Of a stretch of DNA of 64,000 nt, positions 21,334-36,573 are shown piece after piece. Location of the stretch: NCBI GenBank assembly GCA_001899305.1, contig MKWL01000022.1, positions 62,001-126,000 on the forward strand. The letters run 5' to 3'. The number at the start of each line of letters is the position of its first letter. Position 1 is the stretch's first letter. The notes beneath the pieces were generated by a model. It saw nothing but the letters and a program-made list of their open reading frames with translations, made no database searches and was not told the origin of the DNA. This DNA is from Thiobacillus sp. 0-1251 (lineage in GTDB: Bacteria > Pseudomonadota > Gammaproteobacteria > Burkholderiales > Thiobacillaceae). A program made the position numbers and the translations under genes.

Positions 21334-21636
21334 ATGTTGAAACTTTATTTACGCCATGCGGCGCCGTGGGCGCGCGCATCTTTCCTGGGCCTGACGGCGG
21401 CTTCTGCGTGGCTGGTAGCGTTGCCTGCCGCACAGGCAGCCGAAACTCCGCCTTCTCCGCCAGCTGTATCCAATCCTTTCGCGCACTATCGGGCCTGGCG
21501 CGAGGACGCATTGCAGGACTGGCGCCAGGCCAACGACCGGGTGGGTGAAATCGGCGGCTGGCGTACCTACCTGCGCGAGTCGCAGCAAACCGGCGAGGCC
21601 CCGGATCAGACCGGGCAGGCACATCATGCGCACTGA
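21334..21636 (+). CDS. Small periplasmic protein of copper cluster, function unknown
   Basis: A 100-residue protein with a signal peptide (hydrophobic core near residues 17-34, cleavage near AQA). The mature part contains NPFAHYRAWREDALQDWRQAND and VGEIGGWRTYLRES and ends in a short HHAH tail. I recall similar small proteins preceding TolC-type genes in copper-oxidase clusters. Its last codons overlap the start of the TolC-type gene, so the two are probably coupled. Confidence 0.62.
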   Translation: MLKLYLRHAAPWARASFLGLTAASAWLVALPAAQAAETPPSPPAVSNPFAHYRAWREDALQDWRQANDRVGEIGGWRTYLRESQQTGEAPDQTGQAHHAH

Positions 21637-23059
21637 GCGGAAGGCCATGCATCCGACTTTTCCTGCGCCGCGTACGCTGACCCTCGCCGTGTTGTCTGCC
21701 ATCCTGCTGGGCGGCTGCGCGAGCTTTTCCACCGACGGCGGCTTCGAAACGGTCCGGTCCGCCACCCAGTCGCGCATCCAGAAGGATGTCGTCTGGTCAC
21801 GCGATGAAGCCAGTCGTGCGCAGATCCAGGCGCGCATCGATGCGCTGCTGGCGCAACCGCTCTCCGCAGATGACGCGGTACAGATTGCGCTGCTCAACAA
21901 TCCCGGCCTGCAGGCGGCCTTCAACACGCTCGGCATCGCCGAGGCCGACTGGATCGCGGCGCAGCGCCTGCCGAACCCGGGCGTTTCCATCGGCCGTCTC
22001 ACGCGGGGCAGCGAAGTGGAATGGGAACGCAGCCTGCATCTCAACCTGATGCGGCTGCTGACCATGCCGATACGCATCGACATCGAGCAGCGGCTGTTCG
22101 AGCAGACCCGGCGCGAACTGATTCTGAACGTACTGCGGCTGGCGGCGGACACCCGCAAGGCCTGGGTCATCGCGGTGGCGGCGAAGCAGTCCGCGCATTA
22201 CCAGCAGCAGACGATGGATGCTGCCGAGGCCGGCGCGGAACTGGCGCGCCGCATGGCGCAGGTCGGCAACTGGAGCAAGCTGAAGCAGGCACGCGAGCAG
22301 TCGTTCTATGCGGACGCCGCACTGGCGGTGGCACGCGCCGAGCAGACGAAGCTGCAGGCGCGCGAACGCCTGGTCCGGCTGCTGGGCCTGCCCCATGGCG
22401 ATGCGCTGCAATTGCCCGAACGTTTGCCGGATCTGCCTGCAACCCTGCCCGCGCTGCCGGATGTCGAACAGCAGGCCATGGATTCGCGCCTGGATCTGCA
22501 GGCCACCCGGCTGCAAACCGAGGCGCTGGCCAGGAACCTGGGACTCACACGCCGCACGCGCTTCGTCAACGTGCTGGAGCTGGGCGCCATCAGCAACAGT
22601 TCGAACGAAGCGCCCTTGCAGCGCGGTTATGAAATCAGCTTCGAACTGCCGCTGTTCGATTGGGGGCAGACCCGGGTGGTACAGGCTGAATCGCGCTACC
22701 GCAAGGCGCTCGAGCGCGCACGCGAGACCGCGGTCAATGCGCGTTCCGAGGTGCGCGAGGCCTATGCCATGCAGCAGAGCCAATATGCCATTGCGCGCCA
22801 CCTGCGCGACGAGGTGGTGCCACTGAAGCAGCGCATCTCCGAGGAAAACCAGTATCGCTACAACGGCATGCTGATCGGCGTGTTCGAGCTGCTGGCCGAC
22901 GCGCGTTCGCAGATCGCATCGGTCAACGCCGCCATCGAGGCGCAGCGCGATTTCTGGCTCGCCGACGCCGACATGCGGATGGCACTGGCCGGCACGCCGG
23001 GCAAAGCCCAGGTCACCTCTCTCCCGTCCGCATCTGCCGATGCGGCGGGTGGACACTGA
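21626..23059 (+). CDS. TolC-family outer membrane lipoprotein of copper cluster
   Basis: An outer membrane efflux-channel protein of about 477 residues. The N-terminus carries a lipoprotein signal with lipobox LLGGC about 30 residues in. Long amphipathic helices with repeated Ala/Gln/Arg heptads (for example NNPGLQAAFNTLGIAEADWIAAQRLPNPG) are typical of TolC-type coiled-coil barrels. ATGs at 21626 and 21647 are both possible starts: the first overlaps the preceding gene, the second follows GGAAGG closely. No inner-membrane pump is adjacent here, which is odd for a TolC family member. Confidence 0.82.
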   Translation: MRTERKAMHPTFPAPRTLTLAVLSAILLGGCASFSTDGGFETVRSATQSRIQKDVVWSRDEASRAQIQARIDALLAQPLSADDAVQIALLNNPGLQAAFNTLGIAEADWIAAQRLPNPGVSIGRLTRGSEVEWERSLHLNLMRLLTMPIRIDIEQRLFEQTRRELILNVLRLAADTRKAWVIAVAAKQSAHYQQQTMDAAEAGAELARRMAQVGNWSKLKQAREQSFYADAALAVARAEQTKLQARERLVRLLGLPHGDALQLPERLPDLPATLPALPDVEQQAMDSRLDLQATRLQTEALARNLGLTRRTRFVNVLELGAISNSSNEAPLQRGYEISFELPLFDWGQTRVVQAESRYRKALERARETAVNARSEVREAYAMQQSQYAIARHLRDEVVPLKQRISEENQYRYNGMLIGVFELLADARSQIASVNAAIEAQRDFWLADADMRMALAGTPGKAQVTSLPSASADAAGGH

Positions 23060-23070
23060 AAGGATCTACC

Positions 23071-24456
23071 ATGACCTCAAGACGTGATTTCTTCAAACTC
23101 GGCAGCGCAGCCGCCGTCGCCACGGTGAGTCCGGCTGCCCTGGCGGCGCTTCCTGAAATTGTCAGCATGGACAGGCCCGATACCCAGCCGCCGCTGATTC
23201 CATCCAGCGGTCGTCCCTACAATCCGGTGGTGACGTTGAACGGCTGGACGCTGCCGTGGCGCATGAAGGATGGCGTGAAGGAATTCCATCTCGTCGCCGA
23301 GCCGGTGGTACGCGAAATCGCCCCCGGCATGAAGGCGCACTTGTGGGGCTACAACGGCCAGAGCCCTGGGCCCACTATCGAAGTAGTGGAAGGCGACCGG
23401 GTGCGGCTCTATGTCACCAATCGTTTGCCCGAACACACGACCATCCACTGGCACGGCCAGCGCCTGCCCAACGGCATGGATGGCGTCGGCGGATTGACTC
23501 AGCCGCATATCAAGCCGGGCAAAACCTTCGTCTACGAATTCGTCGCGCGTCGCCCCGGCACCTTCATGTACCACCCGCATGCCGACGAGATGACGCAGAT
23601 GGCGATGGGCATGATGGGTTTCTGGGTGACACACCCGAAGGGCAGGCATCCGGCGATCGAGCCGGTCGACCGCGATTTTTGCTTCCTCATCAACGCCTAC
23701 GACATCGATCCTGGCAGCGCCACGCCCTCGGTCAACACCATGCTCGATTTCAACCTGTGGACCTGGAACAGCCGTGCGTTCCCGGGCATCGACAGCCTCA
23801 ACGTTCGGCTGGGCGACCGTGTGCGCATCCGCATGGGCAACCTCACCATGACCAACCATCCGATGCACCTGCACGGCGTGGAGTTCGAGGTGACCGGCAC
23901 CGACGGCGGCCCGGTGCCGAAGTCCGCGCGCTGGCCGGAGGTGACCACCGACATCGCAGTCGGCCAGATGCGCCAGATCGAATTCGTCGCCGACGAGGAG
24001 GGCGACTGGGCGTTCCACTGCCACAAGAGCCACCACACCATGAATGCGATGGGCCATGCGGTGCCGACGATGATCGGCGTCGACTACAGCGGCCTGGCGG
24101 GCAAGATCGGCAAGCTCATTCCCGACTACATGGCGATGGGTGAGCGCGGCATGGCCGACATGGCTGAAATGGAGATGCCGCTGCCCGACAATACCTTGCC
24201 GATGATGACTGGCAAGGGACCATTCGGTCCGGTCGAGATGGGCGGCATGTTCAGCGTGATGAAGGTGCGGCGCGGGCAGAAGCGCGGCGATTATTCCGAC
24301 CCCGGCTGGTACAAGCAGCCGCCCGGCACGCAGGCACGCGAGCTTGCCGGCGCGATGGCCGAACCGATGCGCGCGCCATCCACTGCCTCGCCCCAGGGTA
24401 CCCCGGGCGATGTCGAGATCACCGTACGCAAACCGGTCGGCCACGCCGGCCATTGA
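23071..24456 (+). CDS. Tat-exported multicopper oxidase with Met-rich C-terminal extension
   Basis: A periplasmic copper enzyme that probably oxidises Cu(I) or acts as a laccase-like oxidase. The N-terminus is a Tat signal, SRRDFFKLG, consistent with folded, copper-loaded export. The four copper motifs are present: HWHG (126-129), MYHPHADE (167-173), HPMHLHG (263-269) and HCHKSHHTMNAM (316-327). The type 1/type 3 motif usually lies near the C-terminus. Here about 130 residues follow it, including a Met-rich stretch (MAMGERGMADMAEMEMP, LPMMTGKG, VEMGGMFSVMKV). The length of 461 fits a two-domain architecture. It follows the TolC gene by 11 bases. Confidence 0.88.
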   Translation: MTSRRDFFKLGSAAAVATVSPAALAALPEIVSMDRPDTQPPLIPSSGRPYNPVVTLNGWTLPWRMKDGVKEFHLVAEPVVREIAPGMKAHLWGYNGQSPGPTIEVVEGDRVRLYVTNRLPEHTTIHWHGQRLPNGMDGVGGLTQPHIKPGKTFVYEFVARRPGTFMYHPHADEMTQMAMGMMGFWVTHPKGRHPAIEPVDRDFCFLINAYDIDPGSATPSVNTMLDFNLWTWNSRAFPGIDSLNVRLGDRVRIRMGNLTMTNHPMHLHGVEFEVTGTDGGPVPKSARWPEVTTDIAVGQMRQIEFVADEEGDWAFHCHKSHHTMNAMGHAVPTMIGVDYSGLAGKIGKLIPDYMAMGERGMADMAEMEMPLPDNTLPMMTGKGPFGPVEMGGMFSVMKVRRGQKRGDYSDPGWYKQPPGTQARELAGAMAEPMRAPSTASPQGTPGDVEITVRKPVGHAGH

Positions 24457-24491
24457 ATGCCGTTTTTATATTGTTACGTAGGAGCTGAAAA

Positions 24492-24803
24492 ATGAAGACA
24501 TGGATTCCCTTGCTGGCCGCGCTGGCGATCGCCGCACCGCTGCATGCCGAACCTGTGGCCGCGCCGGTTGCCCAGGCCAATGTGATGACCGATGGCGTCG
24601 TGCGCCGGGTGGATGTAGCCAACGGCAAGCTCACCCTGCGGCACGGGCCGATCGTCAATCTCGACATGCCCGCCATGACCATGGTGTTCCGGGTGCAGCC
24701 GCCGGAACTGATGAAGGGGCTCAAAGTGGGCGATGCGGTGAAATTTCATGCCGAGAGCATCGACGACACCCTGACCGTCACCGCGATCCAGCCTGCGCAA
24801 TAA
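24492..24803 (+). CDS. CusF-like periplasmic copper-binding protein, Trp replaced by Met
   Basis: A 103-residue periplasmic copper chaperone-like protein with a signal peptide ending near residue 19 (PLHA). The OB-fold contains the CusF metal site: H51, then M59, M62 and M64 (NLDMPAMTM). The spacing H+8, +3, +2 matches CusF H36, W44, M47, M49, except that the capping tryptophan is a methionine here. It lies 35 bases after the multicopper oxidase and completes the copper operon. Confidence 0.85.
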   Translation: MKTWIPLLAALAIAAPLHAEPVAAPVAQANVMTDGVVRRVDVANGKLTLRHGPIVNLDMPAMTMVFRVQPPELMKGLKVGDAVKFHAESIDDTLTVTAIQPAQ

Positions 24804-24958
24804 CGGACAAGGCATGGACCAGGCGAATCGCCGGGCCCATCCAGGCCCGAAGTATCCCGCATTAGGATAAGTGGGTCTTTTGTACTAGATTGGAAATGGA
24901 CGATGTCGAACACGCGCAACATCGAGTACAGGGACATTTTTTAGCGAAGGAGACAGAG

Positions 24959-25330
24959 ATGAAACGCATAACACGCCTATCCATAGCCGCCCTTGCCCTT
25001 TCCTTGGGGATGGCGGGTGTCATGCCGGTGTATGCCGCCGATCAGGCGCGCGATCAGGATCGTACCCAGGTGCGTGATCAGGATCGCATTTACGGGTCCG
25101 AACTGATGACGCGGCAGGAACGGGCCGAATACCGCAATCGTATGCGCACGCTGAAAACCCAGCAGGAGCGCGAAGCCTTCCGCCTGGAACATCACAAGCA
25201 GATGCAGGAACGTGCCCAGGCCCAGGGCAAGACCCTGCCCGACATGCCGCCTGCCGGCATGGGGCCCGGCTCGGGGATGGGGCCGGGTATGGGACCGGGC
25301 TCCGGCATGGGACCGGGGTCCCGCCGCTAG
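24959..25330 (+). CDS. Secreted protein with C-terminal GMGPGS repeats, function unknown
   Basis: A 123-residue protein with GAAGGAGA before the ATG and a signal peptide ending near VYAA. The mature N-terminus has a repeated DQDRTQV / DQDRIYG motif. A charged helical middle follows (TRQERAEYRNRMRTLKTQQE), then a Met/Gly/Pro tail with several GMGPGS units encoded by short tandem repeats (about 25256-25320). The tail could bind soft metal ions. Its place beside the copper genes supports an envelope metal or stress role; the function is unknown. Confidence 0.68.
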   Translation: MKRITRLSIAALALSLGMAGVMPVYAADQARDQDRTQVRDQDRIYGSELMTRQERAEYRNRMRTLKTQQEREAFRLEHHKQMQERAQAQGKTLPDMPPAGMGPGSGMGPGMGPGSGMGPGSRR

Positions 25331-25347: not shown

Positions 25348-26718
25348 TCAGGTGGGAGCGGCTGCTGCGCTGAAGCGCAGTGTGGCTGCGAATCCGTGGC
25401 CGCCATCCGCGCGCGGCAATCCATCTCCCAGTTCAAGCTGGGCGTGTGAGAGCGCCGCAATGCGCGCGACGATGGAAAGACCAAGGCCGCATCCTTCGGT
25501 CTCGACCTCGCCGCGCACGAAGCGGGCGCTGAGTTGCGACCGCAACACGGGGGCGACGCCCGGGCCATCGTCGGCAACGGTGATCGCACAGCCCGTTTCG
25601 CGATGCGCGATGCGCACGTCGATCCGCGCCCCTTCCCCTGCATAGTGCACGGCATTGTCGAGCAGGTTGCGGACCGCGACTTGGAGCCACGCCGACGTGA
25701 TGGCGATACGGCATCCCGCTGCCGCATCGACCGTCAGGGTTTGCCCTTGGCGTTGCGCGTGCGGCAAAAGCTCTTCGCACACTGCGGCGACGATGTCTGC
25801 GGGATCCAGCGGTGCGGGCGGATTGCCCTGCGTAGCTGGATCGACGCGCGCCAGCGTCAGCAATTGCTCGACCAGGTGCGTCATCCGGTCCACGCCGGCG
25901 ATCACCTGTGCCAGCGCGTGCTGCTGGCTGTCTGCCGTTTGCGCGCGCAGCGCGACCTGCGTCTGCACTTTCAAGGCCGCCAGCGGCGTGCGCAATTCGT
26001 GCGCGGCATCCGCGGTGAAGCGGCGCTCGTTTTCGAAGGCTTCGTTGACGCGCCGGATCAGCGCATTGAGCGCGGTGCGCAGCGGCGCAATTTCCTCAGG
26101 CAGGGCGGGCGATTCGTCGAGTGGCGTCAGGGCCTGCGCATCGAGCGCGCCGACCTGGTGCGCCACCGTATCCACCGGTCGCAAGTTGCGGCCGATACCC
26201 CACCAGACCGCCAGCGCCATCAGCGGCAGCGCCAGCGCGGCGGGAATCAGCAGCGACAGGCCAATCTCGCGCGCCAGGCCTTCGCGTGCCGCATGGGCCT
26301 GGCCGACGACGACCCGATATTCCGCGTCGGGATCCTGTACTGCATAGAACCGCCAGCGTGCGCCTTCGTACTGGCGTTCGCTGAATCCCGGCCCGATGCC
26401 GGATTCAAACCCGGCGTGGCCCATGGACGTGGCCAGACGCAGCATCCGTCCGTCATCGTCGTGCCACACCTCGAATGCGATGGGCACCGGATTGTGGTGG
26501 CTGTGATCCTGGAGTTCCTTCGCAAAATGCTCGACTTCGCCGGCCGCCACGATCGCCAGCAAGGTGTCGGCGACTTGCGTCAGCTGGCCGTCGAGCAATT
26601 CGTCCGCTTCATGGTGCGCGCGCTGATACACCACCAGCGCGGATAGCAGCCAGATCGCCGCCACCGATCCGGTCAGCAACCACACCAGCCGCCGGCGCAG
26701 GGAATACGGCCGGCTCAT
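25348..26718 (-). CDS. QseC-like two-component sensor histidine kinase
   Basis: A 456-residue inner-membrane sensor kinase. It has spans at about 11-31 and 151-173, a periplasmic sensory region with a histidine-rich patch (DHSHHN, 71-76), a HAMP region, the phosphoacceptor H240 in FTADAAHELRTPLAALK, the N box VRNLLDNAVHY, and G boxes VADDGPGV and GCGLGLSIV. Its ATG overlaps the stop of the upstream response regulator (ATGA). It is the last gene of the b561-SHP-diheme cytochrome-regulator operon. The histidine patch could mean metal sensing, but the true signal cannot be read from sequence. Confidence 0.9.
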   Translation of the reverse strand: MSRPYSLRRRLVWLLTGSVAAIWLLSALVVYQRAHHEADELLDGQLTQVADTLLAIVAAGEVEHFAKELQDHSHHNPVPIAFEVWHDDDGRMLRLATSMGHAGFESGIGPGFSERQYEGARWRFYAVQDPDAEYRVVVGQAHAAREGLAREIGLSLLIPAALALPLMALAVWWGIGRNLRPVDTVAHQVGALDAQALTPLDESPALPEEIAPLRTALNALIRRVNEAFENERRFTADAAHELRTPLAALKVQTQVALRAQTADSQQHALAQVIAGVDRMTHLVEQLLTLARVDPATQGNPPAPLDPADIVAAVCEELLPHAQRQGQTLTVDAAAGCRIAITSAWLQVAVRNLLDNAVHYAGEGARIDVRIAHRETGCAITVADDGPGVAPVLRSQLSARFVRGEVETEGCGLGLSIVARIAALSHAQLELGDGLPRADGGHGFAATLRFSAAAAPT

Positions 26719-27386
26719 GACGCGGGGGCGCCCGTCGACACCATGTAGCCGACGCCACGCACCGTGCGGATCAGGTCGTTGCCGAGCTTCTTCCGCAAAT
26801 GGTGGATGTGGACCTCGAGCGCGTTGCTGTCGACGGCGTCGTTCCAGGTGTAGAGCTGCTCTTCCAGCGTGCGCCGCGTCAGCACCCGGTCGGTGTTTTC
26901 CAGCAGCAGGTGCAACAGATCGAATTCACGCGGAGTCAGTTCGACAGTCTGGCCGGCGCGCGTCACGCTGCGCGCCGCCGGGTTGAGTTCGATCTCGCCG
27001 ACGGCGAGCACAGGTTCCGGGCGGCCATGGGCGCGCCGTACCAACGCGCGCAGGCGGGCGGTGATCTCGTCGAGATCGAACGGTTTCAGCACATAGTCGT
27101 CGGCACCGAGATCGAGTCCGCGTACCTTGTCCTCCAGCTGGTCGCGCGCGGTCAGGATCAGCACCGGCGTGGCGTCATGGCGCCCGCGCAGCCATTGCAG
27201 CACCGACAGGCCGTCGCGTTTCGGCAGCCCCAGGTCGAGCACCACGGCCGCAAACGATTCGGTGGACAGAGCCGTTACCGCCGCCTCGCCATCGCGCAGC
27301 CAGTCGACGGCATAGCCCGCCTGGGTCAGTCCCGCCTGCAGGCCGTCACCCAGCAGGCGGTCATCTTCCACCAACAATATGCGCAT
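26715..27386 (-). CDS. QseB/PmrA-subfamily response regulator
   Basis: A 223-residue OmpR-family regulator. The receiver domain has the acidic pair ED/D near residues 7-9, phosphorylation site D51 in VLDLGLPKRDGL, and the conserved K in LKPFDL. The winged-helix domain carries LTPREFDLLHLLLE and YTWNDAVDSNALEVHIHHLRKKLG, the recognition-helix text characteristic of the QseB/PmrA subfamily, whose members bind CTTAAG-type direct repeats. Two such repeats lie at 29020-29036 and 30587-30603. It is coupled to the kinase by a 4-base overlap. Confidence 0.9.
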   Translation of the reverse strand: MRILLVEDDRLLGDGLQAGLTQAGYAVDWLRDGEAAVTALSTESFAAVVLDLGLPKRDGLSVLQWLRGRHDATPVLILTARDQLEDKVRGLDLGADDYVLKPFDLDEITARLRALVRRAHGRPEPVLAVGEIELNPAARSVTRAGQTVELTPREFDLLHLLLENTDRVLTRRTLEEQLYTWNDAVDSNALEVHIHHLRKKLGNDLIRTVRGVGYMVSTGAPAS

Positions 27387-27406
27387 CGTTCCGGTTCATC
27401 CTTGGG

Positions 27407-27937
27407 TCATTGTTTCGGAATCCTGACCGTGTCCTCATCGAACACGCCCTGTTCCGCCTGGCGGTGGCAGGCAGCACAATTGGCGGCGGAGCCGATCGAT
27501 TTGCGCGTCCACACCGACTTCGACACCTCATCGTGCTTGCGCGCGAACCAGCGGGTTTCGGTGATGCGCAACGGCGCCTGGTTGGCCCCCATGCTTTGCA
27601 TCACCCGACTGCCCATCCGGCTGGTACCGCTGTCGGCGGCGTTGGCCTCCAGGAATCGCAGGATATCAGCCTGGGTTGCCGGATCAAGGCTGGCGTTTTC
27701 GCCGAAGTGCTGATCGAGCCCGCCCATCAGACGGCGCCATGAGGCCTTCGGCAGGAAAGCCGGCGAATAGGCGATATGGCAGCTGGCGCATTCCTGTTGC
27801 CAGGCCTTGTTGGTCGTCCGCGGCAGGACATTGCCGCCGCCATCGCCGTGCGCATCGCCGGATGGCAGCGAAAACGCCAACAGGCTGAACACGCCGACTG
27901 CCGTGACGACTCCGATTCCGCGCAATAGATAGTTCAT
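27407..27937 (-). CDS. Periplasmic diheme cytochrome c (DHC type)
   Basis: A 176-residue exported protein with an N-terminal signal/anchor and two CXXCH heme c sites, CASCH at 50-54 and CAACH at 154-158. The text between (ASWRRLMGGLDQHFGENASLD, ETRWFARKHDEV) matches the DHC family. DHC proteins are electron donors to the oxygen-binding cytochrome SHP, which is encoded 10 bases upstream. The protein ends EDTVRIPKQ. Confidence 0.87.
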   Translation of the reverse strand: MNYLLRGIGVVTAVGVFSLLAFSLPSGDAHGDGGGNVLPRTTNKAWQQECASCHIAYSPAFLPKASWRRLMGGLDQHFGENASLDPATQADILRFLEANAADSGTSRMGSRVMQSMGANQAPLRITETRWFARKHDEVSKSVWTRKSIGSAANCAACHRQAEQGVFDEDTVRIPKQ

Positions 27938-27947
27938 GGTGTGCTCC

Positions 27948-28358
27948 TTATCGGGCCTGGCTCAGCCAGGCGATGAAATCGCCTTTTTCCTGCGCGCTGC
28001 ATTCGCGTTGCAGAACGTCCTGGCAGTTGCGCCGGAACCATTTCTCGACCTTGGCGGCATCGGTGAAGCGCTGCGGATTGGCCACCGGCGCCAGCGGCTC
28101 GATGCGCTTGCCGACGCGGCTGCGTCCGGCCTGGGCGGGGTTGGCGGTATGGCAACCGGCGCAGCTCACGGCCTGGCCATCGCGGCCCGGGTGCTCAGTG
28201 CGATACAAGGCAGCACCGCGCGAGGCGGACAGGCCGGACACCGGCACGCCCGCCTGCTGCGCATACTGCGCCATCAGGCTGGCAGGGCTGTCGGCCGCCG
28301 CCACGGCGGAGGCCATGCCGAGTACCGCCAGGCCACCGTAGAGAAGGTGCTTAATCAT
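27948..28358 (-). CDS. shp: SHP-type oxygen-binding cytochrome c (DUF1924)
   Basis: A 136-residue periplasmic cytochrome with a signal peptide ending near residue 21 and a single CAGCH heme site at 66-70. No methionine lies where a sixth ligand would be expected. The segment RRNCQDVLQREC (109-120) is the SHP signature: an asparagine (N111) is the likely weak distal ligand, and C112 with C120 may form the nearby disulfide. SHP cytochromes bind oxygen and nitric oxide; their physiological role is unsettled. The gene overlaps the b561 gene by 8 bases. Confidence 0.85.
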   Translation of the reverse strand: MIKHLLYGGLAVLGMASAVAAADSPASLMAQYAQQAGVPVSGLSASRGAALYRTEHPGRDGQAVSCAGCHTANPAQAGRSRVGKRIEPLAPVANPQRFTDAAKVEKWFRRNCQDVLQRECSAQEKGDFIAWLSQAR

Positions 28359-28974
28359 GCTGCACCTCGTTCCCCGCGCCGAGGTATTGCTTGCCGGTCA
28401 CCATGCTTTGCGCCACCCGGTCGCCGCGCCATTGGTGAAACACCAGCGCAGCCAGATGCAGACCGATGAAGCCGAGCATCAGGCCGAATCCGAATTCGTG
28501 CGGTTCGCCCAGCACATCCTCCAGCCACGCCACATTGCCCAGCCAGCCGGCGAGCGGGCCCGTCTGGAACTCGCTGGCGGCCAGCCCCAGTCCGGTGACG
28601 ACCATCAGCGCCATCACGCCATAGGCAAACAGATAGCCCAGGCTGGCGATCGGATCGTGCCCGGCGCGGTGGGTCTTGGGCAGGCGCAAATTCCTGACGC
28701 TGTCCTTCCACACGGCGGGATGCCACAGGTCGCGCCAGCGCGCGCTGGCCGGGCCGGCCAGACTCCACAGCAGGCGTGTCAGCAGGCCTGCCGTCAGGGT
28801 GTATCCGATGAGAATGTGCAGATTCCAGAGCGTCTTTTCATATGGCCCGTGTTCGAACCAGTCGGCCATCTGGCTGGTGGCGATGAGCGATACGATGGAC
28901 AGCGCAATGACCCAGTGCAGCAGGCGCAACAGGGGGTCGAACACGCGGTGCGGATGGGTGGCGGCATGTGACAT
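28351..28974 (-). CDS. Cytochrome b561-type membrane protein of SHP operon
   Basis: A 207-residue inner-membrane b-type cytochrome with four main hydrophobic segments. Histidines sit in RLLHWVIAL, LWNLHILIGY, GEPHEFG and FIGLHLAALVFHQW, as expected for the cytochrome b561 / Ni-hydrogenase b-subunit family. It probably passes quinol electrons to the periplasmic diheme cytochrome and SHP. It is the first gene of the minus-strand operon, with GAGGAG before its ATG and a CTTAGG-N5-CTTAAG box about 46 bases further upstream. Confidence 0.88.
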   Translation of the reverse strand: MSHAATHPHRVFDPLLRLLHWVIALSIVSLIATSQMADWFEHGPYEKTLWNLHILIGYTLTAGLLTRLLWSLAGPASARWRDLWHPAVWKDSVRNLRLPKTHRAGHDPIASLGYLFAYGVMALMVVTGLGLAASEFQTGPLAGWLGNVAWLEDVLGEPHEFGFGLMLGFIGLHLAALVFHQWRGDRVAQSMVTGKQYLGAGNEVQHD

Positions 28975-29019
28975 GGCAATCTCCTCAGAGGGGAATGCAG
29001 CAGACTGTATGCGCGTCAG

Positions 29020-29036
29020 CTTAGGGGCACCTTAAG
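29020..29036. promoter_or_regulatory. QseB/PmrA-type direct-repeat operator between b561 and flavocytochrome genes
   Basis: The sequence is CTTAGG-GGCAC-CTTAAG, one base off the perfect CTTAAG-N5-CTTAAG box used by PmrA/QseB-subfamily regulators. It lies about 46 bases upstream of the b561 start and 164 bases upstream of the divergent flavocytochrome gene, and the matching regulator is encoded in the same operon, which suggests autoregulation. Confidence 0.7.
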
Positions 29037-29199
29037 AGAAACATTTATTCGGCAATCCGGGCCGCCGCATAGGTTCACTTTCTCCAAGCACGCGCACAAA
29101 GGCTATTCTGACGGTGGATCGAAAAATACATGCATGTCCACATGCGTGCTTCGAGTCATTGCACGGAGCCATTGGCAATCAACCGGATCGGGTTTGGGC

Positions 29200-30534
29200 A
29201 TGAAGAACATCAAGCTGGGTTTTTGGCTGCTGCTACTCGTGCTGACGGCGCTGTGGCTGCTGGCCGACACGTGGGTACCCGACCCATTCACCTATTTCGC
29301 GCTTCGCACCGTGCTGATGCAATACACCGGCGTCATCGGCATGGGCGCCATGAGTGTCGCCATGCTGCTGGCCACGCGGCCAAAATGGCTGGAGCCCCCT
29401 CTGGACGGGCTCGACAAGATGTATCGCCTGCATAAATGGCTGGGGATCACCGGGCTGGCGTTTTCCTGCATTCACTGGTGGTGGGCGCAAGGAACCAAGT
29501 GGATGGTGGGCTGGGGATGGCTGAGCAGGCCTGCACGCAAGTCGGCTGCCGGCCCGATGCTGGGGCCGGCCGAGAGCTGGCTGCGCGGCCAGCGCGGGCT
29601 GGCTGAATCGCTGGGCGAGTGGGCGTTTTACGCCGCGGTGGTGCTGATCGTCCTGGCGCTGGTCAGGCGTTTTCCCTACCACCTGTTCACCAAGACGCAC
29701 AAATGGCTGGCGGTGGTTTATCTGATACTGGTTTATCACTCCGTCGTGCTGCTCAAGTTTGCCTACTGGTCGCAACCAGTCGGGTGGGCCATGGCTCTGT
29801 TGATGCTGGGCGGCACCGTGGCGGCGCTGCTCGTCCTGTTGCGCCGTGTCGGCGCCAGCCGCAGAGTGCAGGGCACGATCGAATCGCTCATCTATTATCC
29901 GGAATTGCGCGTACTCGAAACGGCCATTCGCCTGGAAAGCGGCTGGTCTGGCCACAATGCCGGACAGTTTGCCTTTGTCACGTCCAGAAAAAGCGAAGGT
30001 GCCCATCCGTATACGATTGCATCGGCCTGGGATGCCGATGACCGCCGCATCGTCTTCATTACCAAGGCGCTTGGCGACCATACCAGCAAGCTGCACGATA
30101 GCTTGAAGGTCGGGGCGCCCGTCACGGTGGAAGGACCTTATGGCTGCTTCGATTTCCGCGACGGGCGCTCGCGCCAGATCTGGATTGGCGCCGGCATCGG
30201 CATCACCCCCTTCATCGCCCGCATGAAGCAGCTGGCACGCCCGCCCGGCGAACAGGAGATCGACCTGTTCCATCCGACGGCGGATTTCGAACAGGCCGCC
30301 ATCGACAAGCTCACGGCCGATGCCCAGGCAGCCCGGGTACGCTTGCATGTGCTGGTCAGCGGGAAAGATGGACGGCTTGATGCCGACCGCATTCGCGCAG
30401 CTGTGCCGCAATGGCAGTTGGCGAGCATCTGGTTCTGCGGTCCGCCAGGATTTGGCCAGGCCATACGGAACGATTTCGTCGCTCATGGCCTGGCGCCGGA
30501 TGATTTTCACCAGGAAATATTTCAGATGCGCTGA
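29200..30534 (+). CDS. Ferric-reductase-like transmembrane flavocytochrome
   Basis: A 444-residue membrane oxidoreductase. The N-terminal half is a ferric-reductase-type heme domain with several spans and two His pairs at the correct spacing, H78/H92 and H167/H180. The C-terminal half is a ferredoxin-reductase-type FAD/NAD(P) domain with HPYTIAS (269-275), GPYGCFDF, GAGIGITPF and WFCGPPGFG. It should carry electrons from NAD(P)H across the membrane, perhaps to metal ions or oxygen. The ATG at 29200 is preferred over an upstream in-frame GTG/ATG at 29134, whose extension is not membrane-like. It is divergent from the SHP operon and may share its regulator. Confidence 0.83.
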   Translation: MKNIKLGFWLLLLVLTALWLLADTWVPDPFTYFALRTVLMQYTGVIGMGAMSVAMLLATRPKWLEPPLDGLDKMYRLHKWLGITGLAFSCIHWWWAQGTKWMVGWGWLSRPARKSAAGPMLGPAESWLRGQRGLAESLGEWAFYAAVVLIVLALVRRFPYHLFTKTHKWLAVVYLILVYHSVVLLKFAYWSQPVGWAMALLMLGGTVAALLVLLRRVGASRRVQGTIESLIYYPELRVLETAIRLESGWSGHNAGQFAFVTSRKSEGAHPYTIASAWDADDRRIVFITKALGDHTSKLHDSLKVGAPVTVEGPYGCFDFRDGRSRQIWIGAGIGITPFIARMKQLARPPGEQEIDLFHPTADFEQAAIDKLTADAQAARVRLHVLVSGKDGRLDADRIRAAVPQWQLASIWFCGPPGFGQAIRNDFVAHGLAPDDFHQEIFQMR

Positions 30535-30586
30535 GAGCGGTCGTCCGAAATGGGACGACCGCCCTGCCGGGCGCGGCGGACAGCCA

Positions 30587-30603
30587 CTTAAGGCGGTCTT
30601 AAG
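30587..30603. promoter_or_regulatory. Perfect CTTAAG-N5-CTTAAG operator upstream of RND efflux cluster
   Basis: The sequence is CTTAAG-GCGGT-CTTAAG, an exact QseB/PmrA-type box 72 bases upstream of the first gene of the efflux cluster. The same regulator type is encoded at 26715-27386. The chance of two such boxes in one small neighbourhood of a G+C-rich genome is low because the half-site is A+T-rich. Confidence 0.75.
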
Positions 30604-30674
30604 AATTCACCGGCAGGATGCGCCTCGAGCCTGGTGTAGGTATCAGTGCCGACGCCCATCCTATAACTTAACTT

Positions 30675-31088
30675 TTGCGACGCATTCCACTTCGACCCGT
30701 GCCGAACCGATTTCTCCGCCTGTTGATGCTCTGGTTGGTCATTGCCTTGCAGGCGATGACGCCGTTCGTCCATGCCCATGCGGGATCGACACAAGCGAGC
30801 CATGCAAGTGGGCTGCATGGGCATGCGGGCGCAGCCGGCGACGTGGCCTGGCACCTGGCTGAAAACAGGGAGCAAGGTGCGGAGATCGAAGTGGCGCAGG
30901 GCATGCCATCGTTGCGGCAGGCCGTGCTGTTTGCGGCGGATGCCGATGCGTCCTATCCCGTACCGGCGCTTCCGCCGTCGGTGGCGACAGCCGTCAGACT
31001 GAGCCCTGCCTGGCTGGGTGTCATCCCGTTGCAGGCCAACTTTCCCGATCACACCCTACCGCACGCGCTGGCGCCGCCGCGCTGCTGA
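30675..31088 (+). CDS. Small secreted His-rich protein heading RND efflux cluster, function unknown
   Basis: A protein of up to 137 residues with a hydrophobic export segment (LRLLMLWLVIALQAMTPFVHAHA) and a mature region beginning with many histidines (HAHAGSTQASHASGLHGHAG). It could bind metal ions in the periplasm. The start is unclear: TTG at 30675, GTG at 30699 and ATG at 30726 are all possible, and none has a good ribosome-binding site. It parallels the Cys/His-rich small protein that heads the copper cluster at 20896. Confidence 0.55.
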   Translation: MRRIPLRPVPNRFLRLLMLWLVIALQAMTPFVHAHAGSTQASHASGLHGHAGAAGDVAWHLAENREQGAEIEVAQGMPSLRQAVLFAADADASYPVPALPPSVATAVRLSPAWLGVIPLQANFPDHTLPHALAPPRC

Positions 31089-31150
31089 TCGTTCCACGCG
31101 GCGCACCTGCCTGTGTGCCGGCCCGAATTTCTTGCTCATGGAGATCAAGC

Positions 31151-32224
31151 ATGATCGCTGGTTATGTTTCTACTCGTATTCTCGTATTGGCGCTGCTCGG
31201 CGCCGCCCCGGCTTTCGCCGCCGACGTCCTGCCCTTGTCCGCAGCGCAGAAGAAGAATCTTGGCATCGTCACCGTCGTTGCGGCCACGCAGGACACCAGC
31301 CCCGCGCTTGCCTATACGGCGCGGGTGACCCTGCCGCCTGCCAGCGTGCGCGTGGCCGCGGCGGCCGGCGCCGGGCTGGTCACCCAGCTGCATGTACAGG
31401 CGGGCGACACGGTCAAGCGCGGCGCCCCGCTCGTCACCCTGTCGATGACCGGCCTGGCCGAAGCGCAGAATGCCCTGACGCAGGCCCGGCTGAGATCGCA
31501 ACTGGCGGCCAGCAATGCCGCGCGCGACGAAAAACTGTTCAGCGAGGGTTTGATCGCGGAGTCGCGCCTGCGCGCCACCCGCTCCGAAGCCCAGTCTGCG
31601 CATGCCAGCCTGATTGCGGCACAGACCGCATTGTCCATGATGGGCGCAGGCAAGGTGACGGGCAGTTCGATCACATTGACCGCGCCGATCGCCGGCGTGG
31701 TGACGGAGAGTGTCGCCGAACCGGGCCAGCGCGTGGATGCCGGCATGGCACTGGTGAAAGTGGCGGATCTGTCGAATCTGGCCCTGGAGATTCCGTTGTC
31801 GACGATCCAGGCGCGTCAGGTGGCGGTCGGGCAATCCGTGACGGTGACGGACAGCAAGGCCAGTGGGCGCGTCATTGCGCTGCTGCCGCAACTCAATGCG
31901 TCGCAAAGCGTGCTGGCGCGCGCCAGTCTTGTCGATCCCGACAAGCTGCTGCGTCCCGGCCAGTCGGTTCAGGTTGCCCTGGCCGGGACGTCGGCTTCGC
32001 AGGGCAAGCAGCCGGCCCAGACCCTGATTGTGCCGGTCGCCGCGCTGGTGTGGCAGGCCAGCCGGCCCTACGTGTTTGTCGAAACCGCGCAAGGCTTCGT
32101 GCCGACGCCGGTGCAGCTGATTCGCCAGAATGCCAGCCAGGCCGAAGTGACCGGCCTGGCTGGCGGCAGCCGCGTCGCCGCCAAGGGTGTGGCGGCGCTC
32201 AAGGCGCAGTGGCTGGGAGAGTAA
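31151..32224 (+). CDS. RND efflux periplasmic adaptor subunit (membrane fusion protein)
   Basis: A 357-residue periplasmic adaptor that joins the RND pump to its outer membrane channel. GGAGA precedes the ATG at 31151, and a signal peptide ends near residue 22 (PAFAAD). The lipoyl-like halves are visible as GLVTQLHVQAGDTVKRGAPLV and SITLTAPIAGVVTESV, separated by an alpha-hairpin rich in Ala, Gln and Arg. No extra C-terminal metal-binding domain is seen. It ends just before the pump gene. Confidence 0.9.
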   Translation: MIAGYVSTRILVLALLGAAPAFAADVLPLSAAQKKNLGIVTVVAATQDTSPALAYTARVTLPPASVRVAAAAGAGLVTQLHVQAGDTVKRGAPLVTLSMTGLAEAQNALTQARLRSQLAASNAARDEKLFSEGLIAESRLRATRSEAQSAHASLIAAQTALSMMGAGKVTGSSITLTAPIAGVVTESVAEPGQRVDAGMALVKVADLSNLALEIPLSTIQARQVAVGQSVTVTDSKASGRVIALLPQLNASQSVLARASLVDPDKLLRPGQSVQVALAGTSASQGKQPAQTLIVPVAALVWQASRPYVFVETAQGFVPTPVQLIRQNASQAEVTGLAGGSRVAAKGVAALKAQWLGE

Positions 32225-32227
32225 TCC

Positions 32228-35200
32228 ATGATGAATAACCTGATCGAAACCGCGCTCGCGCGACGCTGGTTCGTGCTCGCATTGGCACTGGTGCTGGCCG
32301 GGCTGGGCGTGCGCGCATTCCAGCAGATTCCCATCGACGCCTTCCCTGATGTCTCGACCACCCAGGTCAAGCTGATCCTGAAAGCGCCGGGTATGACGCC
32401 GGAAGAAGTGGAGTCGCGCATCGCCCAACCGGTGGAAACCGAACTGCTGGGCATTCCGAAACAGACCATCCTGCGCAGCCAGTCGAAAAACGCACTGGTC
32501 GACATTACCGTTGATTTTGCCGAAGGCACGGACATCTACTGGGCACGCCAGCAGGTGGCGGAGCGCTTCGCCAACGTGAAGGGTGATCTGCCCGCCAACG
32601 TATCGGGCGGCCTGGCGCCGATTTCCACGCCGCTGTCGGAACTCTTCATGTTCACCCTCGAAGGGCCGCTGTCGCTGACGGAGAAGCGCACCCTGCTCGA
32701 CTGGACGGTGCGGCCGCAGTTGCGGGCGATTCCCGGTGTGGCCGACGTCAACTCGCTCGGTGGCCGCGTCGCTACCTTTGCGGTGAGCCCTGATCCGGCG
32801 GCACTGTCTGCGCGCGGCATCACCTATGACGAATTGCGCAAGGCGCTGGAAAGCAATACCCGCAACGACGGCGCCGGGCGCGTCAACGAAGGCGAGGAAA
32901 CCTGGGTGGTGCGCGTCAACGGCGGCATCGGTTCGCTGGAGGATCTGCGGCACGTCGGCATCAAGACCGTCGATGGCGTGGTCGTCACTGTCGGCGACGT
33001 CGCGCGCGTGGAACTGGGCGAGATGACGCGCTACGGCGCCGTGACGCAAAACGGCAAGGGCGAGGCCGTGGAAGGCCTGGTCATCGGCCTGAAAGGCGTC
33101 AATGCGGGCGAACTCATCAAAAACGTCAAGGCCAAGCTCGCAGATATCCAGGCCACGCTGCCCAAGGGCGTGACGATTTCGCCGTTCTACGATCGCGCGC
33201 AACTGGTCGACCGCGCCGTCGGCACGGTGAGCAAGGCGCTGCTCGAAGCGGCGGTGCTGGTGGTCATCCTGCTGTTGCTGTTCCTCGGCAATCTGCGCGC
33301 GGCCATTGTGGTGGCCTTGATCCTGCCGCTGTCCGTGCTGGCGACGTTTGTGCTGATGCGTCAGTTCGGGCTGTCGGCCAACCTGATGAGCCTGGGCGGA
33401 CTGGCCATCGCGATCGGCCTCTTGGTCGATGCGGCGGTGGTGGTGGTCGAGAACGTCGTCGCGCATCTGGCGCACGACCCGGAAGACACCAGTGAAACGC
33501 CGCTGCAGCGTGTACTGTGGGCGACCCAGGAAGTTGCCCGCCCGGTGACCTCGGGCATCGCCATCATTGCCATCGTGTTCCTGCCGCTGCTGACGTTGCA
33601 AGGCCTGGAAGGCAAGCTGTTTGCGCCGGTCGCGCTGACCATCGTGTTTGCGCTGGCGGCATCCCTGCTGCTGGCGCTCAGCGTGATCCCGGTGCTGGCC
33701 TCGATATTGCTGAAGCAGGGCGCACACACCGATCCGTGGCTGCTGCGCAAGGCACAAGGTCTCTACACGCCGCTGCTCGATCGCGCGCTGGCGCGGCCGA
33801 AGATCGTCTACGCCACCGCAGGCGTGCTGATGCTGGCGGCGGTCGGCGTCTATCCGCTGATCGGCAAGACCTTCATGCCGACCATGGACGAGGGCGATAT
33901 CCTGGTGCAGCTGGAAAAACTGCCTTCGATCAGCCTGGAAGAGGCTGTCGCGCAGGATCTGCGGGTACAGCAGGCGCTGTTGAAGAACATCCCGGAAATC
34001 CGCCGCATCGTTGCGCGCGCCGGTGCCGACGAACTCGGGCTCGATCCGATGGGGCTCAACGACACCGACTCCTTCCTGGTGCTGAAGCCGATGGCCGAGT
34101 GGCGTCGTCCGGACAAGGAATGGTTGATCGGGGAAATCCGAACCGTGGTCGAAGGCTTTCCCGGCATCGCCTACACCTTTACCCAGCCAATCGACATGCG
34201 GGTGTCGGAAATGCTCACCGGCTCGCGCGGCGACGTCGCGATCAAGATTTTCGGTCCTGACCTCGCCACGCTCAACCGGCTGACTGGCGAGATATTCAAC
34301 GTGGTCGGGAAAGTCCCTGGCGCGTCCGACGTCTATACCCAGCAGAATGCGGGCGTGCAGTACCTGCAGGCGGAGGTCGACCGGAATGCGGCTGCCCGTT
34401 TCGGCCTCAGTGCCGACGACATCGCCATGCTGTTGCGTACCCAACTCGAGGGCGAAGTCATCGGCACGATCCAGCAGCAGGGACGGCGCATCCCGCTGCA
34501 ACTGCGCGGGCCTGCCGATTTGCGCGCGTCACCCGATGCCCTGCAGGCGCTGCGCCTGACCCTGCCGGATGGCCGCGAGATCAGCCTCGACCAGGTGGCG
34601 CACCTGAAGCGCACCAACGGGCCGGTGGCGGTGAAGCGTGAAAACGCAGCCCGTTTCACCGTGGTGCAGAGCAACGTTGCCGGCCGCGATCTGGTCAGCT
34701 TCGTCGAGGACGCGAAAGCGGCCGTGGCCGCGCAGGTCAAGCTGCCGCCCGGCTACAGCATCACTTGGGGCGGCCAGTTCGAAAACCAGCAGCGTGCCGC
34801 GAAACGCCTGATGATCGTGGTGCCGGTGGCGCTCTTGCTGATCGGCTTCCTGCTGTATGTCACGTTCGGCGATGCGCGCCAGGCGCTGCTGGTGATGATG
34901 AACGTGCCGCTGGCGCTGATCGGCGGCATCTTCGCCCTGGCGGCGTCGGGCGAGTACCTGTCGGTGCCCGCCTCGGTCGGTTTCATCGCATTGCTGGGTA
35001 TCGCGGTGCTGAACGGCGTGGTGCTGGTCAGCCATTTCAACCAGTTGCGTGCGCAGGGATTGCAGGGCGACGCCGTGGTGCGTGATGGCGCGTTGCGGCG
35101 CCTGCGTCCGGTGCTGATGACCGCCAGTATCGCCGCGTTCGGCCTGGTGCCGCTGCTGTTCGCGACCGGGCCCGGTTCCGAAATCCAGCGCCCGCTCGCC

Positions 35201-35299
35201 ATCGTCGTCATCGGCGGCCTGGTCAGCGCCACTCTGCTGACGCTGGTGATGCTGCCGCTGTTGTACCGCCAATTCATATTGAAAGGAGCGCACGCATGA
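32228..35299 (+). CDS. Heavy-metal-type RND efflux pump, CzcA/CusA family
   Basis: A 1023-residue inner-membrane proton-driven exporter, full length for HME-RND pumps. It shows the N-terminal span, the porter segment DFAEGTDIYWARQQVAERF, the TM4 charge site GLLVDAAVVVVENV (D about 401, E about 408) and the C-terminal PVLMTASIAAFGLVPLL. The usual zinc/cobalt/cadmium-pump triad DFG-D-E is reduced: the first Asp is absent (AIAIG), as in CusA. That weakens a simple Czc assignment; the substrate stays open. It is coupled to the next gene by a 4-base overlap. Confidence 0.92.
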   Translation: MMNNLIETALARRWFVLALALVLAGLGVRAFQQIPIDAFPDVSTTQVKLILKAPGMTPEEVESRIAQPVETELLGIPKQTILRSQSKNALVDITVDFAEGTDIYWARQQVAERFANVKGDLPANVSGGLAPISTPLSELFMFTLEGPLSLTEKRTLLDWTVRPQLRAIPGVADVNSLGGRVATFAVSPDPAALSARGITYDELRKALESNTRNDGAGRVNEGEETWVVRVNGGIGSLEDLRHVGIKTVDGVVVTVGDVARVELGEMTRYGAVTQNGKGEAVEGLVIGLKGVNAGELIKNVKAKLADIQATLPKGVTISPFYDRAQLVDRAVGTVSKALLEAAVLVVILLLLFLGNLRAAIVVALILPLSVLATFVLMRQFGLSANLMSLGGLAIAIGLLVDAAVVVVENVVAHLAHDPEDTSETPLQRVLWATQEVARPVTSGIAIIAIVFLPLLTLQGLEGKLFAPVALTIVFALAASLLLALSVIPVLASILLKQGAHTDPWLLRKAQGLYTPLLDRALARPKIVYATAGVLMLAAVGVYPLIGKTFMPTMDEGDILVQLEKLPSISLEEAVAQDLRVQQALLKNIPEIRRIVARAGADELGLDPMGLNDTDSFLVLKPMAEWRRPDKEWLIGEIRTVVEGFPGIAYTFTQPIDMRVSEMLTGSRGDVAIKIFGPDLATLNRLTGEIFNVVGKVPGASDVYTQQNAGVQYLQAEVDRNAAARFGLSADDIAMLLRTQLEGEVIGTIQQQGRRIPLQLRGPADLRASPDALQALRLTLPDGREISLDQVAHLKRTNGPVAVKRENAARFTVVQSNVAGRDLVSFVEDAKAAVAAQVKLPPGYSITWGGQFENQQRAAKRLMIVVPVALLLIGFLLYVTFGDARQALLVMMNVPLALIGGIFALAASGEYLSVPASVGFIALLGIAVLNGVVLVSHFNQLRAQGLQGDAVVRDGALRRLRPVLMTASIAAFGLVPLLFATGPGSEIQRPLAIVVIGGLVSATLLTLVMLPLLYRQFILKGAHA

Positions 35300-36573
35300 G
35301 GGCCGTACACACATTGAGTCTCGCGCTGGCACTGGCGTTCGCCACGCCGACTTTATCCACGGCGGCCTACGCCGATTATCTGCCCGACCCGGTCGCGGCC
35401 GAAGCGGCCTTACGGGCCTCGCCCATGGTGGCGCAGGCACGCGGCGAATTTGCCGCGCAATCGCTGAGAAGCGAGAGCTTGCGCCGCGGTCGCGAAGAGT
35501 GGGTGCTGGGCGCGGATGCCCTGCAGCGCCGGATCGATACGCCGCAGGATCGTTTCGCGGAGTGGGGCGTGGCGTTGTCGCGCCCACTGCGTCTGCCCGG
35601 GCGCGCCGCGGCCGACCGCGTGCTTGCCGGCGCGCTGACCGCCCATGCCGAAGCGAGTTACGGCGAAGCGATGCACGAAAGCGGACGGCAACTGCTTGCG
35701 CTCTGGTTCGACTGGCTGAACGAAGCCGGCCAGACCCGGTTGTGGCTGGCGCAGGTGAGTCTGGCCGAGCAGCAGCTCGCCACCGTGGATGCCCGCATTC
35801 GCCTGGGCGAGGCGCCGCGTTCCGAACGCGTCAACGCGGAAGCGGCGCTGGCGCAGGCGCGCCTGCAGCAGCAACAGGCGGCCACGCGCGAGCAACGGGC
35901 GCGCAGTCGGCTCATGGCGCAATACCCGGGCCTGCCGGTGACGGCGGACGACACGTTGCCGGCGCCGGTCGAGCCAGCCGGGTCGGCTGAGGACTATGTC
36001 AGCGCCGTGCTGGCACACAACCACGAACTGTTCCGCGCGCGGCGCCAGGCCGAGGTGTTGCGGGCCGAGGCCCGGCAACTGGCCAGCCGCCGCAGCATCG
36101 ACCCCACGGTCGGCGTGTTCTACAAGAATGAATTGGGCGGCAGCGAGCACCAACTGGGCGTAAGCGTCGGGCTGACGTTGCCGGGCAGCGCGCGGCGTAC
36201 CGACCAGCAGGCCGCCGAGCAGCTCAGCACCACCGCGGAAGAGGCGGCCGTCCGTCTGGAGCAACGCTTGCGTCAGGAGGCGCGCGCGGATTTCGAGGCG
36301 GCGGCGGCCCAGGTGGCAAACTGGCAGCAGGCCGACCATGCCGCCCAGTCGCTGGCGGAGGCGGCGCGGCTGGCGGCGCGTGCCTACAGCCTGGGCGAAG
36401 GCAGTCTGGATCAGGTGCTACTCAACCGCCGGCTGGCGCTGGAAGGCCAGTTGAACGCCCAGCAGGCGCAGTTCGCTGCGTTGGCGGCAGATGCCCGATT
36501 GAAGCTGGACGCCCATCGATTGTGGCCGCTCGATGTGGCCGCGGACCAGGACGGCGAGCACGCCCATCCGTAA
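35296..36573 (+). CDS. RND efflux outer membrane factor (CzcC/TolC family)
   Basis: A 425-residue outer membrane channel subunit with a signal peptide ending near AYADY. Two long helical repeats with Ala/Gln/Arg-rich coiled coils are visible (LWLAQVSLAEQQLATVDARIRLGEAPRSE and the second copy near AARLAARAYSLGEGSLDQVL). There is no lipobox, unlike the TolC-type protein at 21626. It overlaps the pump gene and completes the tripartite CBA-type system. Confidence 0.9.
   Translation: MRAVHTLSLALALAFATPTLSTAAYADYLPDPVAAEAALRASPMVAQARGEFAAQSLRSESLRRGREEWVLGADALQRRIDTPQDRFAEWGVALSRPLRLPGRAAADRVLAGALTAHAEASYGEAMHESGRQLLALWFDWLNEAGQTRLWLAQVSLAEQQLATVDARIRLGEAPRSERVNAEAALAQARLQQQQAATREQRARSRLMAQYPGLPVTADDTLPAPVEPAGSAEDYVSAVLAHNHELFRARRQAEVLRAEARQLASRRSIDPTVGVFYKNELGGSEHQLGVSVGLTLPGSARRTDQQAAEQLSTTAEEAAVRLEQRLRQEARADFEAAAAQVANWQQADHAAQSLAEAARLAARAYSLGEGSLDQVLLNRRLALEGQLNAQQAQFAALAADARLKLDAHRLWPLDVAADQDGEHAHP

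Follow-up and report, generated by a model that had tools for sequence, protein, structure and literature searches.

In the 64,000-nucleotide stretch of contig MKWL01000022.1 from Thiobacillus sp. 0-1251 that we analysed (positions 62,001 to 126,000; hereafter the window), two copies of a CTTAAG-type promoter element, box 1 and box 2, lie between a cytochrome operon and a metal efflux cluster. Genes for a b561-type cytochrome, the cytochrome SHP and the dihaem cytochrome c DHC stand in tandem on the strand that also carries a response regulator and a sensor kinase. Box 1 is the first box of this SHP/qseBC operon, and the cytochrome b561 gene (cytB) starts 46 base pairs (bp) downstream of it, while box 2 precedes the genes of an HME-RND pump. 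The features are listed below in window coordinates.

25348..26718, minus strand: QseC-like sensor histidine kinase with a 2CSK_N sensor domain (profile matches)
26715..27386, minus strand: PmrA/QseB-subfamily response regulator, REC and winged-helix domains (profile matches, alignment with PDB 4S04, alignment of nine regulators)
27407..27937, minus strand: dihaem cytochrome c, DHC (PF09626)
27948..28358, minus strand: SHP (PF09086/DUF1924), a relative of 1DW0 (E 9e-29)
28351..28974, minus strand: b561-type membrane cytochrome (PF01292); the operon begins with this gene
29004..29009, minus strand: TACAGT, a -10-like hexamer that box 1 precedes by 10 bp (seen in 27 distinct promoters of the genus and, outside it, at the same offset)
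29020..29036, minus strand: box 1, CTTAAG-GTGCC-CCTAAG on the operon strand, which reads CTTAGG-GGCAC-CTTAAG forward (window and genome pattern search)
29134..30534, plus strand: ferric-reductase-like flavocytochrome between the boxes, its membership of the regulon unsupported (Pfam, congener comparison)
30587..30603, plus strand: box 2, CTTAAG-GCGGT-CTTAAG, upstream of the HME-RND cluster (window and genome pattern search)
30614..30619, plus strand: -10-like hexamer CAGGAT, 10 bp after box 2 (24 distinct genus promoters)
30675..31088, plus strand: small, probably secreted protein rich in His, whose gene is the first to follow box 2 (by reading; homologues in many congeners)
31115..32224, plus strand: RND periplasmic adaptor, CzcB-like (curated model)
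32228..35299, plus strand: HME-RND permease of the CzcA/CusA family (TIGR00914; curated model and PDB match)
35296..36573, plus strand: outer-membrane efflux protein (PF02321)

The two box sequences were located exactly where the first-pass annotation had placed them, and both target promoters carry two 6-bp direct half-sites with a 5-bp spacer, the form of a PmrA/QseB box. With up to one mismatch allowed, the window holds two sites, where 300 Markov shuffles gave 0.01 on average and never more than one, and three of its four CTTAAG hexamers lie inside the two boxes; at up to three mismatches the count is uninformative (3 sites, 4.2 expected from dinucleotide shuffles). We then scanned the genome (3,658,319 bases in 24 contigs) with the reversed pattern as control. 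The perfect site occurs once, as box 2, and sites with up to one mismatch occur at four places, of which two are boxes 1 and 2, compared with two places for the control, so that the many random copies considered by the first-pass annotation did not materialise. When YANNNT was required 10 bp downstream, a spacing taken from relatives, the best two matches in the genome were box 2 (no mismatch) and box 1 (one), and the next ones had two mismatches. Genome-wide matches with two or three mismatches carry no meaning, because at up to three mismatches plus the -10 the control outnumbered the real pattern, with 35 matches per strand against 13 and 10. A looser PmrA-box pattern added nothing, with 7 hits over both strands of the genome against 5 for its control.

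Regions fetched around the regulator from congeners gave 30 same-genus loci. Box 1 is present upstream of cytB in 25 of the 26 loci with visible upstream DNA, and box 2 upstream of the pump cluster in 22 of 23. The first-pass annotation was therefore right to put one box before the operon of the regulator itself and the other before the HME-RND cluster, and its question about the orthologous spacers of relatives is answered by the same counts. The box 1 exception, L051, has only a partial cytB match; the box 2 exception, L066, does have a perfect box, 566 bp upstream of the adaptor match and so outside the 320 bp scanned. Both boxes are retained despite inserts of 2-10 kilobases that separate them. 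In L062, which has the SHP/QseB operon, box 1 carries two mismatches and box 2 one. That the boxes are chance matches or functionless relics could be argued from the simple palindromic nature of CTTAAG and from the two other one-mismatch places in the genome. This explanation is hardly credible in view of the conservation, the fixed spacing described below and the occurrence of a perfect site, in some cases at other genes, in 38 of 56 congener genomes against 2 of 56 with the reversed control.

The space between the boxes (29036 to 30587), like its counterpart in L037, L039, L041, L044, and L046, is an insertion hotspot. It holds the flavocytochrome here, a CzcD-like transporter in L039, an LtaS-like sulfatase in L046, type I restriction genes in L041 and L044, and in L037 a protein that weakly matches defence ATPases.

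To describe the promoters, we aligned their copies on the box, which places the hexamer at offsets 28-33 for both boxes. In the genus alignment, the best-kept letters outside the box are those of this hexamer, beginning 10 bp after it. The box 1 hexamer is TACAGT-like in 27 distinct genus promoters (T1 in 24, A2 in 27, T6 in 27), and the box 2 hexamer is CAGGAT-like in 24 (C1, A2, and T6 in 24 each). Further positions above 1 bit among close relatives are 21, 24, 38, 44, and 54-56 for box 1 and 20, 21, 26, 34, and 35 for box 2. The same spacing recurs in 31 distinct QseB-type promoters from the two outside-genus sets described below, of which 30 have A at +29 and 30 have T at +33. The pattern TA...T begins at offset 28 in 18 of the 31 promoters, at none of the offsets 20-27 and 29-39, at 40 in three and at 44 in one.

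Since CTTAAG is its own reverse complement, a perfect box has no intrinsic direction, and we read the direction off the degenerate copies and the -10 hexamer. In both half-sites of the 31 promoters the 5' letter is the most variable and the AAG end is nearly fixed. The element is therefore read as a head-to-tail direct repeat, as reported for Klebsiella pneumoniae PmrA, which binds CTTAAT-N5-CCTAAG of pbgP head to tail (PMC3973317). At the usual 17-bp spacing, a -35 would overlap the spacer and the last part of the first half-site, in agreement with the statement that the -35 of the PmrA-bound pbgP promoter lies at half-site 1 (PMC4660055). No kept -35 element separate from the box was seen in the genus promoter alignments or in the 31 QseB-type promoters. 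The layout of box and predicted -10 is that of an activator substituting for -35 contacts. NTTAAG-N5-NNTAAG-N10-NANNNT, from the 31 promoters, offers a usable site-plus-spacing model for collecting PmrA/QseB-type regulons in environmental proteobacteria.

The half-sites overlie the promoter core, where a bound regulator could also block the polymerase, and phosphorylated PreA (QseB) has been discussed as a possible repressor in a Salmonella study (PMC2653508). The regulator might accordingly bind both boxes and repress, or do both depending on its phosphorylation state. We regard this as unlikely, because no -35 is kept apart from the box and because the fixed 10-bp distance between box and -10 fits an activator that replaces -35 contacts.

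The response regulator has REC and Trans_reg_C domains and finds its best curated models in QseB and PmrA, although it scores below the cut-offs of both NCBIfam equivalogs (266 bits against 345 for NF007663, QseB; 253.7 against 330 for NF007928, PmrA). Its recognition helix reads SNALEVHIHHLRKKLG, compared with TNTLEVHIHNLREKIG in the BasR/PmrA chain of PDB 4S04, which we take to be the K. pneumoniae protein. This alignment bears out the recognition helix of the PmrA/QseB type noticed in the first-pass annotation. A PmrA-like helix, SNxxEVHxHHLRxKL, is found in all nine regulators aligned, and we assign the protein to the PmrA/QseB subfamily. The kinase likewise falls below the curated QseC equivalog (277.8 bits, cut-off 475); in an alignment of 29 sequences, its sensor region keeps a few His and acidic residues, in which no metal motif could be named.

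Taken together, the boxes, their conservation, the promoter layout and the recognition helix make it very probable that an autoregulated QseBC/PmrAB-type system activates the SHP operon and the HME-RND pump via boxes 1 and 2. We infer from sequence comparison that the regulator binds the boxes, that it activates rather than represses, that the genes are transcribed as operons and that an envelope/metal or redox signal is shared.

Outside the genus, we collected SHP operons by a class-wide search, which found SHP in 64 of 370 genomes; 60 of the 67 matches were fetched, and L067 and L068 were added from the regulator search. Boxes were scored with up to two mismatches in the 300 bp that lie around the first operon gene and upstream of it, and expectations were obtained by shuffling. 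In this first set, 9 of 11 SHP operons with a QseB-type regulator have a box (0.12 expected), compared with 2 of 29 that have other regulators; the single locus of an intermediate regulator class also has one. A second set comprised 80 named loci, of which the 17 closest (L303-L319) were separated as Thiobacillus. Here the box was found in 22 of 24 new QseB-type loci outside Thiobacillus (0.16 expected) and in all three new Thiobacillus loci. Among the 18 repeats in this set it occurs in 14 of 14 Thiobacillus loci, in the one QseB-type locus not at all, and in two of three without a regulator (two further loci were too short). Loci with other regulators have it in 1 of 5 cases; the corresponding Fisher p of 0.003 is given no weight, because three of the five (L343, L372, and L378) have partial regulator matches with 54-69% identity that resemble cut-off QseB-type genes. 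The kept promoter architecture spans Thiobacillus, Rhodocyclaceae, Gallionella, Sulfuricella, Aquabacterium, and other lineages. The best reading of these comparisons is that SHP operons would be under this regulon widely, and the HME-RND pump in Thiobacillus.

Several points weigh against this reading. The counts represent related sequences and not independent events. The QseB-type threshold of 230 bits was fixed after the first class set had been viewed, and was left unchanged in the second, and the script for the second set differed slightly (operon start from an extrapolated SHP start; fixed BLAST database size). QseB-type SHP operons without a box occur in both sets (L162 and L172; L358 and L380), and in the first set 2 of 29 operons with other regulators, L178 and L186, do carry one. 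Where no regulator is nearby, the box is above chance, in 6 of 21 loci of the first set (0.11 expected) and 8 of 28 of the second (0.26 expected), so the association of the box with a neighbouring regulator is not a strict one. No box before an RND pump was met outside Thiobacillus, though other genera were not searched for it.

Boxes at SHP loci without a nearby regulator include those of L321, L327, L350, L353, and L381 (Crenobacter, Pseudomonas, Vogesella, Craterilacuibacter, and Pseudogulbenkiania), and four of these five have two boxes about 32-35 bp apart. Such loci are perhaps served by a regulator encoded elsewhere. In genome G028, a second QseB-like regulator (55% identical) follows two overlapping perfect boxes that form three half-sites (L107:4585-4612). 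Binding of the boxes by a regulator other than the operon-encoded one could be argued from the SHP operons with boxes but no adjacent regulator, and from this second regulator with perfect boxes of its own. For the window it is very unlikely. The five OmpR-type paralogues examined, out of six further matches in the same genome, lack the EVHIHHLR helix and a box at up to two mismatches, and across families the box mostly accompanies a QseB-type neighbour.

The flavocytochrome lies between the boxes with its start about 100 bp from box 1, and its homologues occur in the SHP loci of L162 (identical with locus L352; 56%, immediately before SHP on its strand) and L212 (52%; divergent). Because of these homologues it may be functionally related to SHP. 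That it is also controlled by box 1 is improbable. Among the congener loci examined, only those of this genome, G060, and G079 have it at this position, and it is a clade-specific insertion. On its side of box 1, offsets 28-33 read ATTCGG here and in L122, and TATTTG in L123 and L303, without the A29/T33 pair, and L162, which has the homologue, has no box upstream of its first gene. We therefore set its membership of the regulon aside as unsupported. Box 1 had been thought to face the flavocytochrome; by the -10 evidence it points to cytochrome b561. Of the single system proposed in the first-pass annotation for cytochromes, a reductase and metal efflux, comparative evidence thus supports the autoregulated SHP operon and the pump, and control of the flavocytochrome is left unsupported.

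Another candidate, the LtaS-like sulfatase, was rejected as a target of box 2. The distance from the beginning of the box to the sulfatase start codon is only 17-30 bp in 15 of 16 close homologues (72-100% identity), too short to accommodate a -10 on that side, so we take box 2 to be directed at the pump. None of 14 more distant LtaS-like sulfatase homologues has a box. In L046 (2200-2216) and L058 (2426-2442), a one-mismatch box precedes a homologue of the small protein encoded at 24890-25330 of the window; the window search found no such box there.

In the pump cluster, the small His-rich protein has no Pfam match. The permease matches TIGR00914 with 1073 bits (cut-off 701.45) and has ZneA as its best PDB match; in alignments its AIG...D signature is nearer to that of CusA (AVG) than to that of ZneA (DFG). 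Downstream of qseC, on the other strand (21545-24803), lie genes for an outer-membrane efflux protein, a multicopper oxidase and a CusF-like copper-binding protein, in an order kept in many congeners. This neighbourhood of qseC suggests copper as the metal.

The DUF1924 protein is SHP, a predicted oxygen-binding cytochrome; its match to 1DW0 and the retained Asn of 1DW0 position 88, a haem ligand, identify it as a member of the SHP family, and it is 96% identical to the SHP of Thiobacillus denitrificans UBA2410. In the mechanism that we propose, the phosphorylated regulator would bind, as a head-to-tail dimer, two NTTAAG-like half-sites 11 bp apart and recruit RNA polymerase, with the -10 following the box by 10 bp and the -35 place at the end of the first half-site. 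Box 1 would then drive cytB-SHP-DHC-qseB-qseC, that is, an electron path to the oxygen-binding cytochrome SHP together with the regulators, and box 2 the small His-rich protein and the HME-RND efflux pump. More tentatively, the SHP path (quinol to b561 to DHC to SHP) could be an effector arm of an envelope metal-stress response (Cu/Ag or Fe) under PmrA/QseB-type systems, acting on periplasmic metal or metal-made reactive oxygen while the pump exports metal; we consider this possible, with the odds against it. In 2010, SHP was the only known oxygen-binding c-type haem protein and its function was open (PMC2909971). The kept promoter points to the regulator that most likely switches SHP on and to the genes expressed with it. 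With a likely regulator and partner genes named, SHP function becomes directly testable, and the promoter is a good handle on its role.

The system resembles the PmrAB regulon of Salmonella and Klebsiella in the kind of half-site, the 5-bp spacer, the head-to-tail order, the -35 at half-site 1 and a closely similar helix, but its targets are the SHP electron path and an HME-RND pump, whereas those of PmrAB serve lipid A modification. A box also precedes an ArnT-like (PMT family) gene in 5 of the 30 best-scoring congener loci, with a -10-like hexamer at the same spacing (perfect in L243, L249, and L265; one mismatch in L244 and L253), and a perfect one does so in L101, a locus picked because of its box. 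In L110 a box is divergent from a PAP2 phosphatase gene. These boxes resemble classic PmrA lipid A-modification targets. As a general member of the regulon the ArnT-like gene was rejected, since beyond L101 it has the box at only those five best-scoring genus loci, 21 further matches having been left out, and none was found in this genome.

QseBC/PreAB provides the closest curated models for regulator and kinase and shares the autoregulation known for preAB; unlike its members, both proteins here score below the equivalog cut-offs given above. Salmonella PreA activates the cytochrome b561 gene STM1253, and preAB is autoregulated (PMC2653508), and Glaesserella QseB bound CTTAAN4CTTAG in a gel shift (PMC10714720). 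Also close are the SK2 operons of Meyer et al. (2010), SHP-DHC-cytB with a QseC-like kinase, whose authors suggested that SHP, heavy-metal transport and regulators are linked (PMC2909971). Their argument drew on SK1-type Chromatiaceae and on three other species that have CzcD next to SHP, the kinase type of these three being unstated, and a divergent promoter was guessed for SK1-type operons. In contrast to our analysis, the accessible part of that paper gives no regulator binding site; the terms box, consensus and direct repeat are absent from it, and the binding sites it mentions are those of haem or co-substrate (PMC2909971). ZneRS/CzcRS likewise is a two-component system beside an HME-RND pump, ZneA being the best PDB match of the pump here, and ZneS groups with QseC (PMC10127602); what differs here is the PmrA-type box and the location of the regulator genes inside the SHP operon.

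Already known, then, are the QseC-like kinase in SHP operons, the proposal of an SHP-metal link (2010), PmrA boxes, QseB regulation, the PreA-activated b561 and QseC-group kinases beside metal pumps. Among the titles and abstract beginnings that our searches of open literature brought up, none reports a box of the QseB/PmrA kind, either at SHP operons or in Thiobacillus. Compared with these systems, what is new, as far as the literature was searched, is the PmrA-type promoter at QseB-linked SHP operons in many lineages, together with its second copy before the HME-RND pump of Thiobacillus.

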